This document shows, in pieces, positions 53,849-60,755 of a stretch of DNA of 64,000 bases. The notes under the pieces are model-generated. The model did no database searches, had not been told where the DNA came from, and saw nothing but the letters and a program-made list of their open reading frames with translations. Each line of letters begins with the position of its first letter. Position 1 is the first letter of the stretch. Made by a program: the position numbers and the translations under genes. Origin of the DNA: Brevibacterium permense (lineage in GTDB: Bacteria; Actinomycetota; Actinomycetes; Actinomycetales; Brevibacteriaceae); assembly GCF_025506275.1 (NCBI RefSeq), contig NZ_QYCP01000086.1:1-64000 (forward strand), in the 5' to 3' direction.

Positions 53849-54775
53849 GTGAAACCGATGGATGATGGAGTGCGCCCTATGCCGATCATGGATGAGTCGT
53901 CTCCCATTGGTGCCGCGATTGCACGGGACAACCGGCGAGCGGATCGACTGTCGCAGTCAACCTTTCCACGGCCGGACTCTACCCGTATCTTCACGATCGC
54001 GAACCAGAAGGGTGGCGTCGGAAAGACCACGACGGCGGTGAACATCGCAGCGGCTCTGGCCAATCAAGGTCTCAATGTGCTGCTCGTCGACATCGATCCG
54101 CAGGGAAACGCGAGCACTGCCCTGGGAATCGACCACTATTCCGAGGTCACGAGCATCTATGACGTCCTCATCGATGACGTTCCCATGCGCGAGGCAGTGG
54201 CGCAGTGTCCGGACTTCGATACTCTCAAATGCGTACCGGCCACCATCGACCTCGCCGGCGCGGAGATCGAACTCGTGTCTCTCGTCGCTCGTGAACAGCG
54301 ACTGCAACGTGCCTTGGGCATCTACCTGAAGGAGGAGGAAGCAGCGGGAGACCGCGTCGACTACATCATCATCGACTGCCCGCCCAGCCTCGGTCTGCTG
54401 ACGGTGAACGCTTTCGTGGCCGCTCGCGAGGTCCTCATCCCGATCCAGTGTGAATATTATGCACTCGAGGGTCTCAGCCAGCTGCTGAAGAACATCCAGC
54501 TCATCCAGAAGCACCTCAATCCCGAATTGGCCATCACGACGATTCTGCTGACGATGTATGACGGACGGACGAACCTCAGTGCTCAGGTCGCTGAGGATGT
54601 GCGCACTCACTTCCCGGAGCAGGTTCTCGGAACTGCCATTCCGCGTTCGGTGAGGATCTCCGAAGCACCGAGCTATGGCCAGACCGTGATCTCATATGAC
54701 CCAAATTCCAGCGGTGCCCTGTCCTATCGGGAAGCCGCCGAAGAAATTGCGAATCGAGGAGTAAGTCGTGGTTGA
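53849..54775 (+). CDS. parA: Chromosome partitioning ATPase ParA
   Basis: 308 residues (GTG at 53849; ATG at 53858 is an alternative with an equally weak ribosome site). Deviant Walker [16 protein letters not shown] at about residue 52, switch [23 protein letters not shown], and the C-terminal [13 protein letters not shown] typical of chromosomal ParA/Soj. Moves ParB-parS complexes over the nucleoid. Overlaps parB by eight bases. Confidence 0.96.
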
Positions 54776-56783
54776 ACGCAAAAAGAGGGGCCTGGGGCGC
54801 GGGCTCGGAGCATTGATTCCCGACGCGAACTCCAATGATCGTCCGGTCGATGTGTTCTTCTCCGGCGGGAACTCGGAAGACGGCAAACGTGAGAGCGAGA
54901 CGAAGTCGTCACGCACTGCGCGTACGGACCCAGCTGCGTCGATGCAGTCGTCCCGACGACGCAAGCCGAAGGCATCCGGGACAAATCGATCGCCGTCGAC
55001 CACTACCGGGGCAGATACCGAGACTGAGGCAGCTGCCTCGAAGACAGAGTCCTCGAAGGTCGGGTCGACGAAGGCCGGGTCGACGAAATCGGGAACGGCC
55101 AAGGCTGCGTCGTCCACGTCGTCCAAGACTCCTGGGTCCAAGCCCGCGGGTTCGAAGTTGACCGCCTCTAAGTCGACCACGTCTCAGTCGACAGGGACGA
55201 AGACGACGGCCTCGAAGACGACGGGAACGAAGGCATCGACGGCGAAGTCGAGCGCAGCGAAGACGAGTTCACCGACGACGAGTGCACCGAAGGCAGCCGG
55301 GAGAGGTTCTTCCAGAACTTCCGCTGCCGCCAAATCGACGTCTACTAAGTCGAAGGCTGGGTCTTCTGCTCAACCGCGGTCCGGTTCCTCCTCTGCCTCC
55401 CCAGTTGAAAGCGCAGAGAAGGTGTCTGCAGCGCCGAAGAGGACGACTCGAAAGTCAGCGTCCCCCGATGCGGTTTCTGACACGGCAGACGGCTCAGCCA
55501 ATGTCTCGACTTCAGTGGCGAGTTCGTCTGTTGAATCCAATTCGGTTCAGGTGGCTGACAATGAGGCTGTTGACGCGAGTTCTGACCTCGTCAATGACAC
55601 TCAGGTCCCAGCGGCCACCTCGGCAGTTGCGTCGGCATCGCCGGCCGATGATGTTGTTCGGGAGACGCATCCCGGCGTATACACGTCGTCTGGGCGAAGC
55701 GATGCTGACAATGAGGCGGATGAAAAGGGCCAGTCTGAACGCCGCGGAGTTGACGAGCATGCCGCCACTACGAATGTAGTTGAACCTGAGTCAGTGGATG
55801 ATGAAGGCGAGAGTCGTCCGGCGGTGACCTCGGAATCAGATGTTTCGACAGCCTCCGAACCAGATATGGGAGAGAGCACTTCAGCTTCAACCGAACAGTC
55901 GGGTGACTCCGACACCGCGAAGTCCGACGATGACGGCGAACTCGACGATTTTGAAGGCGTCGAGTCGATTCCGGATACCGAATTCGGTGAGATTGACGTC
56001 GATCTCATCGATGCGAACCCCAGGCAGCCGCGAACCGTCTTCGATGAAGATCTGCTGGCGGAGTTGGTCCACAGTATTCGTGAGATCGGTGTCCTTCAGC
56101 CTGTCGTCGTCAGGCAGAAGCCGAGCGACCGCTCGCGCTTCGAGCTCATCATGGGCGAGAGGCGTCTTCGTGCGACAAAGGACGCGGGCCTGTCGACGAT
56201 TCCGGCAATCATTCGGTATGTCGAAGATACAGCCCTTCTCCGTGATGCGCTTCTGGAGAACCTGCATCGAGCAGAGCTCAATCCGCTTGAAGAGGCAGCG
56301 GCCTATGGTCAGCTGCTCGAGGACTTCGGCTGTACTCAGGAAGAGCTCTCCGAGCGTATCGGACGATCTCGTCCTCAGATCTCCAATACTCTTCGTCTGC
56401 TGCGCCTTCCTCCTCTGGTGCAGAGGCGGGTCGCTGCCGGCGTCATCTCGGCCGGTCACGCTCGAGCGATTCTTGGCCTGCGTGATCCGGAGCATATGGA
56501 AGTGCTTGCGCAGCGGATCGTTGCAGAGGGACTGTCCGTTAGGGCATCGGAGGAAGCTGTTGTATTGCTCAACCGAGGCGACTCCATCAATGTTTCACGT
56601 GCAACGACGAAGGTGGCCCCGGAGTTTCTGGCGGTAGCTGAACGTTTGGGCGATCGTCTCGACACCAAGGTGAACATCTCCGTTGGCAAACGCAAGGGCA
56701 AGCTGAGTGTGGAGTTCGCGAACCAAGACGACCTCGACCGTATTCTCGGTCTTTTGGGAGTATCGAACGAAGACGGTCTCTGA
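54768..56783 (+). CDS. parB: ParB centromere-binding CTPase with a large disordered insertion
   Basis: 671 residues, GTG with GAGGAG upstream. The N-terminal ParA-activating motif [15 protein letters not shown] is at residues 5-19. The ParB/Srx core starts only at about residue 408 ([14 protein letters not shown]), with the CTP motif GERRLRATK near 462 and the helix-turn-helix [23 protein letters not shown] near 530. Usual length is 320-380. The extra ~385 residues are Ser/Thr/Ala/Lys-rich and basic (to about 225), then acidic (about 240-405). Codon use there is less GC-rich than in parA. A parS-like site lies inside the gene near its 3' end. Confidence 0.96.
56591..56606. promoter_or_regulatory. 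parS-like site 1, within parB
   Basis: TGTTTCACGTGCAACG, one core change from TGTTTCACGTGAAACA. Inside the coding region (residues FHVQ). Confidence 0.7.
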
Positions 56784-56803
56784 ACGCAACACAATAGGTG
56801 CTG

Positions 56804-56835
56804 ATGGGCTTCGGGGTGATCGCCCCGAAGCCCAT
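56804..56835 (+). terminator. Intrinsic terminator of parAB
   Basis: 13-bp perfect stem (56804-56816 with 56823-56835), loop TGATCG, then TTCTTTT. It starts 20 bases after the parB stop. Confidence 0.93.
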
Positions 56836-56949
56836 TTCTTTTGGCGCGGACCTTGGTTGAGACGGTCTGTGAGATTCCATGCGTCTGTTCCCTCATATCA
56901 CTATCGACGATCTCCCGATATGACTTCGCTGATAGGACGGCGGTGCCAG

Positions 56950-56965
56950 CGTTTCACGTGAAACG
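56950..56965. promoter_or_regulatory. parS site 2
   Basis: CGTTTCACGTGAAACG, perfect 14-bp core palindrome. Confidence 0.93.
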
Positions 56966-57238
56966 AGATAGCTGTAGATCAACGTGAGACGTTCGCACCA
57001 GTGATTGAGGTTGTGTGGAGATTCTGGCCCGCTACGGGCAACCAGCTCGAAGTATTCAGATACTAGTTAATATGAACGTGAATAACGATAGGTCGCTTAG
57101 CGGGTAGGAGTGCGTTGGTGAAATGGGGAGTTCCAATGTCTATCCGTGGACTCCAGGGATGGATCTCCTCGTAGATGTGGGCAGAGTGCCTGGAACGCTT
57201 GCGCTGGGCTCGTGTCAGCTGCACATTGCCTGAAGCGC

Positions 57239-57254
57239 TGTTTCACGTGAAACA
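57239..57254. promoter_or_regulatory. parS site 3
   Basis: TGTTTCACGTGAAACA, identical to the 16-bp consensus parS. Confidence 0.95.
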
Positions 57255-57361
57255 GTCAAGTCAGATCGGTTGCTGGAGATTCTCCTGGAGCACCTCGGTT
57301 CTGCTTGAAGACGTGGAGCAGTTCCTGGTGGAGGCTAGACATTCACGAGTGCACTGGTCCT

Positions 57362-57377
57362 TGTTTCACGTGAAAAG
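57362..57377. promoter_or_regulatory. parS-like site 4
   Basis: TGTTTCACGTGAAAAG, last core base changed. Confidence 0.75.
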
Positions 57378-57517
57378 GGGTGCTGCAATTGTTGGGCGAT
57401 AAGGGACGCGCTAATCTGAAGTCACGTCGTGTCATTACTGAAACTGCTTATATCCATACGCGCCTTGTTGATTCTGGTTTGTCGACATCATTCCCCCTGC
57501 TATACGACATGAGTTAC

Positions 57518-57533
57518 TGTTTCACCTGAAACC
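57518..57533. promoter_or_regulatory. parS-like site 5
   Basis: TGTTTCACCTGAAACC, central CACGTG changed to CACCTG, so binding may be weak. Confidence 0.6.
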
Positions 57534-57907
57534 AGGATTGACGGGTGAGCGAGACTCTGGTGACGACGGCAGTGATGTTCGATCTAGAACGCTGCTTGTG
57601 CTCTGATCGCAACGTTCCCCGGACATCGAATTGGGTGGTGATCTGCGGGTTATTAGCTCTCAATTGTCTCTTTTCGAGAGCGGCCCACGCCAGGGTCCAC
57701 TACGGTGCTCACAATGCTCTGCTGCCTTCTCCGTCAGTCTTCCGAACACGGCTGGAACGCTGCTAATCGGCACGGTATGGCCCACCTAGAGAGTGCATCT
57801 GACAATTGACTGATGGCCATCCTCCTGAGTTGGATTCCCATAGACCGGTGGATACTAGCCGATTGCTCTGTCCACCTATATGAAGTAGAACAGAGATGTC
57901 TTCTCGG

Positions 57908-57923
57908 CGTTTCACGTGGAACA
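57908..57923. promoter_or_regulatory. parS-like site 6
   Basis: CGTTTCACGTGGAACA, one core change in the right half. Confidence 0.75.
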
Positions 57924-58230
57924 ATGAGTTTGCCGGTCGTATTCGGAAGCCGGATGCATCGGTGGGGTTGGCTGCTGTTGCAAGAACGTCTGCCACTCAA
58001 GGTTCACGCTTGCCATTTGGTGACGGATCTATTGCTGACATCATGTGGTGATAGCTCTAGAACAGGCTGAAGTGTGTCAGGAGTGCTCTGCCTAGGAGCC
58101 GATTTAGATTCCATTCGCGCGAGTGGAAGGGAGGACGGGCTGAATTGAGGTGATGTGACTCGGAGAGTACGTCCACCGATGTGACGGATCTACCGCCCTT
58201 TGTCATATGATGTACCGATCGTAAGGCGCA

Positions 58231-58246
58231 TGTTTCACGTGCAACC
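58231..58246. promoter_or_regulatory. parS-like site 7
   Basis: TGTTTCACGTGCAACC, same A-to-C change as site 1 in parB. Confidence 0.75.
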
Positions 58247-58552
58247 TCGTTCTAACCGAGCATTTCTGATCGTGGTGCTGGAAGAGGTAGCTTGAGTATA
58301 GGACACGGTACCGACGTCGTACTTAGGGAGCTCAGGTACTCTGTTCTTTACCGTTGTCGGGTCTGGCATAATTCCTTGTACTGTGGTCACGCGTCCGCCG
58401 TACTCAGTCCGTGTCACGTAGCCGGGCTCAGCATAGTTCGGCTTATGCACCTTCTGTCCGATGGCAGATTCTTTGTGGGCTTGTCACTCGGTTCGGCCGG
58501 TGTTCTCCCGACTGGTTTCAGATATAGGGTGCCTGGATTCAGGTAGGAGGTA

Positions 58553-58568
58553 CGTTTCACGTGAAACG
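58553..58568. promoter_or_regulatory. parS site 8
   Basis: CGTTTCACGTGAAACG, perfect core. Confidence 0.93.
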
Positions 58569-58762
58569 AATTCTGGCGCTCATCGTATCGATGCCGGTTA
58601 CAGTCGCCTTTCGCCCCTGGAATGATTGCTCTTCGACAGGGGGCGACATATGTGAACGGTCGAGGTCGCCCAGTGGTTTCGATCTGCTGAACCGAGCTGG
58701 CAACGAGTCTGTGTCTTCCACATTGGCGGCAACTAGCAGTACAGGCGGATTCTGAATCTCGT

Positions 58763-58778
58763 TGTTTCACGTGAAACA
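58763..58778. promoter_or_regulatory. parS site 9
   Basis: TGTTTCACGTGAAACA, identical to consensus. Confidence 0.95.
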
Positions 58779-59133
58779 ACCCGCCCCGTACGCTAGGGTC
58801 GCGGCTAATTCAGCGTTGCCTTGAAGTTGAGAGAACGGCCTCATCGGCTCTCGATCAGTTGGATGTTGATCTGGGACTTCTCAGAGCCCGATGCCCGGCA
58901 ACTCGATGTGCCGAAGGTGAGAACTTGCTGCTACGTCTTTTGGAGGCGTTTGTCAATCAGTCGTTCGCGAAGATGGCGCTCGAGCGGCGATTAGAACCGG
59001 TGTGTCCGACATCGCTTTAGCAGCGAACGGGCGGGATGTTTCGACGCCATAAGAATGCTCTGGTGTCAGCCAGGGCTGGTCGGTAATGTTGGTATAGTCA
59101 CTGGTGTTCTGCCATCGGACGGAGTCTTAAGAT

Positions 59134-59149
59134 GGTTTCACGTGAAACG
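59134..59149. promoter_or_regulatory. parS site 10
   Basis: GGTTTCACGTGAAACG, perfect core. Confidence 0.92.
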
Positions 59150-59343
59150 AAGGAACCGTTCTAGTCCTGTTCTCCATCGGCGGCCGTATGAGATTGAATC
59201 AGCCTGCGTGTATTGCCGGTGCTAGAGCCTACGGGTTGTGTTCAGTAGTTTCAGACAGTAGTTACATGTCAAAGTAGGCTCGTTCTTCAACGGAAACCGC
59301 TGCAAATCCGAGTGACGCGTCGGTTGAATTGTGCACAGCCTGC

Positions 59344-59359
59344 CGTTTCACGTGAAACA
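59344..59359. promoter_or_regulatory. parS site 11
   Basis: CGTTTCACGTGAAACA, perfect core; last site before the CwlM-like gene. Confidence 0.93.
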
Positions 59360-59618
59360 TACCGCGGCCGAGTCCATGCTGCGATTTCTGCTGTGTTCGT
59401 TACGCGCGCTGTGCGGCCGAAGAGCGAATCGACTTATGGCGGTTGTATGCCTTGTTTCGAGGCTGTATCAGCCTGTCATCGGTGTTTGTAGGTGGCGCCT
59501 TGTCTCTGTCTTTAGTCATATGGTGATATGTCCCCTCGGTTTCAAGATCGAGGTGAGAAGAGCGGTGCTCCTGTTCGAGGAACACGGCTCTGGAGGCATC
59601 GAGGTTGAAGCTGGATGA

Positions 59619-60755
59619 CTAGTTCAGAGCCTTGATGGCATCGAGACTGAGAGTACCGGTCTGAGGATCTTTGTCTTCCATAATGTAGAGGCGTTGGAGC
59701 GCAGCGGCTATGCCATCGGCGATCGCGTCTCTCACCTGCGGATCCTGGAGGTTCTCAAGATCGTCTTTGTTGGTGAGGTAACCGCTGACGACATGCACCT
59801 TCGGTGTCTTCAGTCGCTTGAGTGATGACCATGTGCGCGCATGCGTGCGGCAGTCCTGCATTCCGGTCCGTGCGACCAATTCTCCTTGGATGAGCTCCGC
59901 CAGCTTCTGCCCCGTCGGCGAGTTGAGATCCGACTGGCGTTCGTGGCCGAAGTAGAAGGTTGCCAGTCCGTTGGCATCCTTGGATTTGCTGACATCTGCT
60001 GTGACGGTGATGACTGCAGATGCACCGAGTGTATCTGCGCGATTGACCTCGACAGCATCGCCTTCGAGGAGGATTGCCCCAGCACCGATTGCTTCCAAGC
60101 GTCCGACAAGGCGGCTTGCTATGTCCGAAGTGATCTGACGCTCGAGGGCAGCTTGCTCGTCGGTCATCGGCAATGTCTGAAAATCTACAACTGTAGTTGC
60201 CGCCTCAATGACGAAAGTGCGGCCGACTAGGGACGTACCCGAAGCCGCTACGCGTGCACGCTCCTGAAGCGCGAAGAGATTGCCGGTGTCCTGGTTGCGG
60301 TCGATCGCGTTGAGTCCGCGCAGAGTCTGCGGCCCCGTCACACCGTCGACCTTCGTACCCAGACTCATCTGCAGTTCCTTGACCGCTGCCTCGGTCAGAG
60401 ACGCGTACTCGGAATCGATACGACCCGGATAGAAGCCCAAGCCGGCGAGTTTGGTCTGGAGGTCGACGACGTCATCGCCTGTCAGCACTCTGACGGGGTC
60501 GAATCGGAGCACACGGTCGCCCAACTGATAGCGAGCCTGCTCGAGCGCAGAAAACGTCTCAGGGCCCAACACACCGTCGCAGAGGATCCCCCGGTCCTGC
60601 TGGAACTGGCGGACACCCAACTCAAAAGCACGATCGAAGTCCGGGGTCTCGGTATCGCCGACATGGAGCCCCAATCGGGCCATCTGAGCTTTGATATTGG
60701 GCAGCATCTCGGAAGTGTCGCCGCGCGAATAGCGCGGTAAGTTCGTGTTCGTCAA
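59619..60755 (-). CDS. cwlM: CwlM-like protein: two peptidoglycan-binding domains plus degenerate amidase_3 domain
   Basis: 378 residues, no signal peptide. PG_binding_1 repeats lie at about 8-75 (VRQFQQDRGILCDGVLGPETF) and 88-153 (VDGVTGPQTLRGLN). The rest aligns in shape with N-acetylmuramoyl-L-alanine amidase_3, but the zinc motifs look lost. Where DPGHGG is expected it reads VIEAATTV. Where SLHAN is expected it reads ITVTADVS. Mycobacterial CwlM is a cytoplasmic PknB substrate that activates MurA rather than a hydrolase, and the trxAB-cwlM order is the same. A regulatory role is therefore likely. Confidence 0.85.
   Translation of the reverse strand: MTNTNLPRYSRGDTSEMLPNIKAQMARLGLHVGDTETPDFDRAFELGVRQFQQDRGILCDGVLGPETFSALEQARYQLGDRVLRFDPVRVLTGDDVVDLQTKLAGLGFYPGRIDSEYASLTEAAVKELQMSLGTKVDGVTGPQTLRGLNAIDRNQDTGNLFALQERARVAASGTSLVGRTFVIEAATTVVDFQTLPMTDEQAALERQITSDIASRLVGRLEAIGAGAILLEGDAVEVNRADTLGASAVITVTADVSKSKDANGLATFYFGHERQSDLNSPTGQKLAELIQGELVARTGMQDCRTHARTWSSLKRLKTPKVHVVSGYLTNKDDLENLQDPQVRDAIADGIAAALQRLYIMEDKDPQTGTLSLDAIKALN

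Follow-up and report, generated by a model that had tools for sequence, protein, structure and literature searches.

Why should a bacterial chromosome keep nearly three kilobases of DNA without genes directly behind parB, and place in it one copy after another of the partition site parS? The question is raised by a contig of Brevibacterium permense (NZ_QYCP01000086.1), of which a stretch of 64,000 nucleotides, here called the window, was analysed; an earlier reading of these letters (the sequence-only reading) had described a parS array next to parB and had taken it for a dedicated, compact centromere. From the results below, we consider it highly probable that this 2.8-kb zone is the single dedicated centromere of the chromosome and, with less certainty, that substitutions accumulate at a raised rate in the array and within about 1 kb of it.

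The parS array and its relatives

A scan of the whole window found 11 parS or near-parS sites between 56592 and 59358, six of them perfect copies of GTTTCACGTGAAAC and five with one mismatch, whereas shuffled sequences gave a mean of 0.13 sites per window at no more than one mismatch. Allowing two mismatches added no further parS-like site in the window. Both the count and the arrangement given in the sequence-only reading were confirmed, with one site inside parB (54768-56783) and ten in the gap behind it (56784-59618). The genome-wide count of parS that it had also proposed returned these 11 sites and no others at one mismatch or fewer (4.2 Mb in 96 contigs, 99.98% complete), and all parS of the genome are thus held within 2.8 kb. 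Further marks of a ParABS centromere were present: the 14/16-bp palindrome YGTTTCACGTGAAACR in several copies, a cognate parA adjacent to a parB whose product carries N-terminal, HTH and C-terminal domains, and dnaA (Bac_DnaA 5.3e-71), dnaN and rnpA recognized by Pfam 6-10 kb upstream, from which proximity to the replication origin (oriC) was judged.

The sites had been described as irregularly spaced, and here the earlier description failed. Their mean distance is 266 bp, and the coefficient of variation (CV) of the spacing is 0.34, where random placement gives 0.86 (p=0.001), making them more even than random. Of 40 Brevibacterium arrays, 39 likewise had a CV lower than their random mean (p<0.05 in 26), as did all 18 arrays of a second genus, g16, the species in these sets being related to one another.

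The gap ends at a convergent cwlM-like gene, called cwlM here as in the sequence-only reading, which had suggested comparing the parB-cwlM spacer across related genomes. Among 57 Brevibacterium genomes including the source, parS sites were present in every one; parB was located in 56, and 53 loci allowed a measurement of the gap. In 43 of these 53 loci at least five gap sites were found (5-12 sites in 1.7-4.1 kb). Every genome-wide site belonged to the parB locus in 42 of the 43 array-bearing loci, and in 36 all of them fell in the gap or in the last 250 bp of parB. Corrected for the tree, gap length tracked the number of sites (r=0.42, p=0.0017, 52 loci). Across 56 Brevibacterium parB genes, the internal site was GTTTCACGTGCAAC in 33, another variant in nine and perfect in eight. 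The sequence-only reading had also suggested that one-base variants could be weaker sites that influence clamp loading or spreading. Variants made up 138 of the 406 gap sites of the genus, and 83 of them changed the fourth base of a half-site. Because 77 of these 83 carry GTTCCAC, a known parS half-site (PMC3899335), many variant gap sites of the genus are probably working sites; among the five variants of the window, only that at 57909 is of this type.

Other layouts exist in the same genus. The gaps of G022 and G025 are 54 and 55 bp long and hold no site, with parS placed just before parA and in parB, where it is read as VSRET in the linker. G023 (L093) also lacks gap sites and has 16 parS-like sites on 13 contigs, the opposite arrangement, and the nine gap sites of G021 (L073) all have one mismatch, six of the nine being GTTTCAC/GTTCCAC hybrids, with no perfect parS in the genome.

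The arrangement was found again in g16 (family f3, same order), for which 49 genomes were searched, 40 loci fetched and 39 gaps measured. Apart from a single gap of 7.2 kb with nine sites, lengths ran from 92 bp (one site) to 4.6 kb (15 sites), and in the nine loci checked no gene of at least 60 amino acids (aa) was present in the gap by codon score. As in Brevibacterium, the g16 arrays, of as many as 15 parS, stand in DNA free of genes between parB and a convergent neighbor, but this neighbor encodes a D-Ala-D-Ala ligase (L215, Pfam Dala_Dala_lig_C 9.2e-40) and is not cwlM. Among the matches listed, other genera of the order showed compact groups as well, such as nine perfect sites within 3.2 kb in G088. 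Genus g29 had 36 (G224) and 21 (G098) parS-like sites per genome, and the perfect sites of G098, among the matches listed, were about 5-10 kb apart on one contig and so formed no compact array.

Within the zone, the sites outlast the DNA between them. In the four nearest relatives of the source genome, the nearest on the tree being G035, nearly all sites stood at the same positions (G026 lacks one), and the rest of the zone was 55-58% identical. Over 12 species pairs, differences amounted to 252 of 1406 positions in sites versus 14188 of 29247 in the spacer, and to 43 of 742 versus 6976 of 15653 in the six pairs with sites still aligned. Indels in the zone were mostly of single bases, and some deleted whole inter-parS units. 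Deletion by recombination between adjacent sites is suggested by two differences of unit length: in the gaps L041/L042, G026 is shorter than G048 by 123 bp between two sites, and in L058/L062, G005 is shorter than G046 by 210 bp. A 21-bp insertion in G017 creates a second site, and sites with exactly two mismatches numbered 39 in 41 zones versus none in one shuffle of each, as would be expected for dying or new sites. A tandem repeat array was rejected: in the seven species examined, site flanks were about as alike as random sequence (slightly more so in two), and no clear surviving tandem-duplicate units were seen in the zone. These alignments are best read as selection retaining the sites, their spacing and presumably the spacer length, not the spacer letters.

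Substitution at and beside the array

Silent rates were expressed as fourfold-site divergence relative to seven reference genes, trxB being one of them. Pairs were edge-disjoint on the tree in Brevibacterium and disjoint by species only in g16 and in a Corynebacterium-like genus, and zone ratios at a divergence p of about 0.54 or higher were treated as saturated and excluded as rates. What is new here is that the spacer diverged at 4.3-6.4 times the reference silent rate (five edge-disjoint unsaturated pairs, p 0.27-0.47), and that silent sites of parB and cwlM diverged at 2-3 times the rate of the reference genes. In the pair G016/G017, zone divergence was 0.255, compared with 0.043 for 89 other intergenic stretches pooled, 258 of 3182 positions for 14 convergent ones and a gene median of 0.067 at fourfold sites. 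The values for G000/G035 were 0.389 for the zone, 0.132 for 24 other intergenic stretches, a few of them poorly matched, and 0.086 for the gene median. The parB linker is counted among the other intergenic stretches, as one of the 24 and probably as one of the 89, there as a convergent stretch.

Over 17 array pairs of Brevibacterium, the ratio was 2.93x for the parB core (above 1 in 16 of 17), 2.33x for cwlM (17 of 17) and 1.08x for parA. By thirds of cwlM in these pairs, it was 1.39x in the third farthest from the array and 2.33x and 2.40x in the two nearer ones. Four non-array pairs, with parS before parA, in parB and zero to two in the gap, gave 1.5-2.8x for parA and 1.2-2.9x for rsmG, and comparison of the two groups on rounded values gave one-sided p values of 0.002 for parA and 0.014 for rsmG; in this comparison G012-G031 was put on the array side, its contig ending in the array, and the mixed pair G001-G032 was left out. 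In g16, the parB ratio exceeded 1 in 13 of 14 pairs and that of the ligase gene in all 13 pairs compared, and seven of eight spacers stood at 2.1-3.2x. Streptomyces, with parS scattered around parA-trxB, showed a modest rise (rsmG and parB above 1 in five of five pairs, parA in four of five). In the Corynebacterium-like genus, which has the same gene order and no parS in the parB regions compared, the ratios were 0.97x for parB and 1.03x for cwlM (12 pairs), different from Brevibacterium at p=1e-5 and p=4e-6, respectively, leaving a purely gene-intrinsic cause of the rise unsupported. One pair of this control genus, L253-L256, is an import-like outlier, with yidC, parA, parB and cwlM all at 1.9-2.9x reference.

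These comparisons suggest raised mutation around the ParB-parS complex. A local mutational effect is favored because silent divergence rises near parS, is absent without parS nearby and shifts with the position of parS. Several observations weigh against site retention or against such an effect. In the other six of the 12 species pairs, 209 of 664 site bases differed, indicating turnover of sites at larger distances. Slight rises were seen for rsmG (1.24x) and trxB (1.16x) in array pairs, one Brevibacterium pair had parB at 0.8x, and in g16 the spacer of L232-L234 reached only 1.1x silent and parB of L225-L238 0.8x. For scattered parS of the Corynebacterium-like genus, silent rates were mixed over three independent comparisons (0.101 vs. 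0.109, 0.115 vs. 0.079 and about 0.52 vs. 0.30), with no rise in one of them. The level of parB and cwlM is high and not unique, being reached by six of 109 conserved genes in G016/G017 and by none of 44 in G000/G035. Lastly, between G048 and G014 the genes upstream are near-identical, the array is diverged and the genes downstream are average, which places a breakpoint near the array, and imported tracts can mimic rate peaks.

The zone could alternatively be an ordinary neutral spacer around a normal parS cluster, unconstrained and changing at the true neutral rate, with silent sites and other intergenic DNA held back by selection. Spacer letters that show no function would agree with this explanation, as would the regulatory signals common in other intergenic regions. 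The block of lower guanine-cytosine (GC) content reported in the sequence-only reading was also present (0.52-0.56 vs. mostly 0.56-0.65 in the surroundings, 500-bp windows) and fits DNA close to mutational balance. However, the two- to threefold silent rise of parB and cwlM, its absence without nearby parS and the dependence of the parA and rsmG ratios on where parS lies are left unexplained, and no relation between GC content at fourfold sites (GC4) and silent rate was found among 48 and 127 other genes, so that relaxed codon bias was rejected as the source of the flank rise. We regard a neutral spacer as rather unlikely.

A recombination hotspot, importing divergent alleles around the array and raising the apparent divergence of zone and flanks, would account for the breakpoint in G048/G014; import-like peaks in G016/G017 also occur in gene clusters far from parS. 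Against it, divergence is fairly even along the zone, sites occupy orthologous positions in near relatives, and parB and cwlM are raised in nearly all edge-disjoint pairs. We judge import to be an unlikely cause.

ParB linker, gap content and neighboring genes

The ParB of this locus was said in the sequence-only reading to have an abnormal disordered region. The unusual length held true, at 671 aa with the first ParB domain starting at residue 405, and a low-complexity linker of about 380 aa (387 aa measured) separates an N-terminal motif from the ParB domains; disorder is suggested by this low complexity. An association with gap length did not survive tree correction. Such an association would be expected if the long linker and the array had evolved together into a single device, such as a condensate scaffold, and raw correlations of ParB length with gap length (rho 0.53 in Brevibacterium, 0.56 in g16 without tree correction) point in that direction. 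Independent contrasts gave r=0.15 (p=0.28, 52 loci), and in G008 and G032 ParB proteins of about 381 and 442 aa stand beside gaps of 2.2 and 1.7 kb, which makes a joint device quite improbable.

Two further observations concern parB itself. In four loci (L088, L091, L094 and L095), parS inside the linker translates as VSRET, so that the centromere sequence would dictate repeated residues of its own binding protein. The parB frame of L081 (G001) holds one in-frame TAG, which may mark an assembly error, a frameshifted region or a broken gene.

No other content was recognized in the gap. Its open reading frames (ORFs) were of chance length and number (longest 121 aa, equalled in 142 of 200 shuffles), and none was open in all four closest relatives. 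Pfam gave no match over the cut-off for ten gap ORFs (best a sub-threshold SWIM, E 0.049), Rfam gave none inside the gap, and promoter-like matches in the zone numbered zero versus 1.8 expected. Counts of k-mers in 41 zones with parS masked (L083 and L090, gap GC 0.62, left out) showed no shared motif over shuffles besides parS, and invariant runs of at least nine bases across five species were all parS, apart from the parB terminator. The zone described earlier as gene-free is so by ORF shuffles, Pfam, Rfam and comparison with relatives, which leaves coding or RNA content unsupported. Some unrecognized function (a decayed mobile element, for instance, or small RNAs or proteins), with parS incidental, is extremely improbable on this evidence, even though the zone, at 2.8 kb, exceeds every other intergenic stretch of conserved length in the comparison and three ORFs of 31-36 aa stay open in two or three of the four relatives.

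The features of the locus are collected in Table 1. The stem of the parB terminator is partly invariant across five close species (run 56805-56815). The hairpin-forming stretch behind the cwlM-like gene, with an invariant fraction of 0.54-0.58 in its final part, was missed by the terminator scan and is a possible terminator with no clear U run.

Table 1. Features of the parS array and adjoining genes, in window positions.
Feature	Position	Strand	Evidence or remark
parA, chromosomal ParA ATPase	53849..54775	+	Pfam AAA_31 1.7e-59
parB, 671 aa	54768..56783	+	ParB_N 405-500, HTH_ParB 503-598, ParB_C 618-663
parS-like site within parB, GTTTCACGTGCAAC	56592..56605	.	mismatch scan
array zone without genes, 2,835 bp	56784..59618	.	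between convergent parB and cwlM-like gene
parB intrinsic terminator, strong	56803..56836	+	terminator scan; fold z=-5.98
parS, perfect	56951..56964	.	mismatch scan
parS, perfect	57240..57253	.	mismatch scan
parS-like, final base altered	57363..57376	.	mismatch scan
parS-like, center altered (CCTG)	57519..57532	.	mismatch scan
parS-like, GTTTCAC/GTTCCAC hybrid	57909..57922	.	mismatch scan
parS-like, GTTTCACGTGCAAC	58232..58245	.	mismatch scan
parS, perfect	58554..58567	.	mismatch scan
parS, perfect	58764..58777	.	mismatch scan
parS, perfect	59135..59148	.	mismatch scan
parS, perfect	59345..59358	.	mismatch scan
hairpin-forming stretch after cwlM-like gene, partly conserved	59530..59618	-	fold z=-2.22, 5/200 shuffles as good
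cwlM-like gene, convergent with parB	59619..60755	-	two peptidoglycan-binding stretches and Amidase_3

A proposed centromere model and known systems

At the level of sequence, the description of the zone as a dedicated, compact centromere appears well supported: it is the sole parS locus, its sites outlast the spacer, other content is lacking, and the layout is kept across much of the genus and recurs in a second genus. We propose a plausible model for its action. The roughly ten parS, close together and rather evenly spaced, would serve as loading points for ParB dimers, which would then close as clamps in a cytidine triphosphate (CTP)-dependent manner, slide off into the spacers and build a single compact partition complex for ParA, probably used in SMC loading as well. 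As the zone sits between two convergent gene ends, little transcription would be expected to enter it. The ParB-parS complex, or what it recruits, may disturb replication or repair and so raise substitution locally.

Compact parS arrays are a kind already known. Myxococcus xanthus has 22 putative parS within 3 kb, near parAB and about 35 kb from oriC (PMC3899335), and the Brevibacterium array resembles this cluster in being compact and near parAB. Unlike the array described here, the M. xanthus cluster lies about 4 kb upstream of parA, has the consensus TGTTCCACGTGGAACG and is denser, with three sites mentioned outside it; the excerpted part of that account holds no statement on spacer evolution (PMC3899335). 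Corynebacterium glutamicum, likewise an actinobacterium, also has ten parS, redundant and mostly intergenic, one of which is enough for near-normal segregation, but they are spread across 35 kb, 73 kb from oriC (PMC7083940). The five strongest parS of Caulobacter crescentus lie within 5 kb and, unlike those here, sit within genes whose loss would be fatal or costly (PMC5815017). ParB spreading from a single site in Escherichia coli extends at most about 2 kb, which resembles the reach of the rate rise found here (PMC5815017). Searches of open-licence full text for parS with mutation or substitution rate, and for parS with Brevibacterium, gave nothing relevant among the matches listed.

Considering the above results and speculation, we put forward, as a tentative generalization that we would not yet back at even odds, that bacterial centromeres are mutation hot spots. 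ParB-loaded DNA would change several-fold faster, its letters being rewritten while sites, length and spacing are kept, much as in eukaryotic centromeres, and arrays would gain and lose whole inter-parS units.

The expansion of bacterial centromere regions has been posed as an open question (PMC5815017). Brevibacterium includes species with parS in and near parAB but no gap array (G022, G025), others with gaps of intermediate size, one with dispersed parS (G023) and many with full arrays. This range of layouts, together with the recurrence of the array in g16, opens centromere expansion to comparative test. Furthermore, if the rise in rate is indeed mutational, the ParB-parS complex would bias mutation locally, close to the replication origin.

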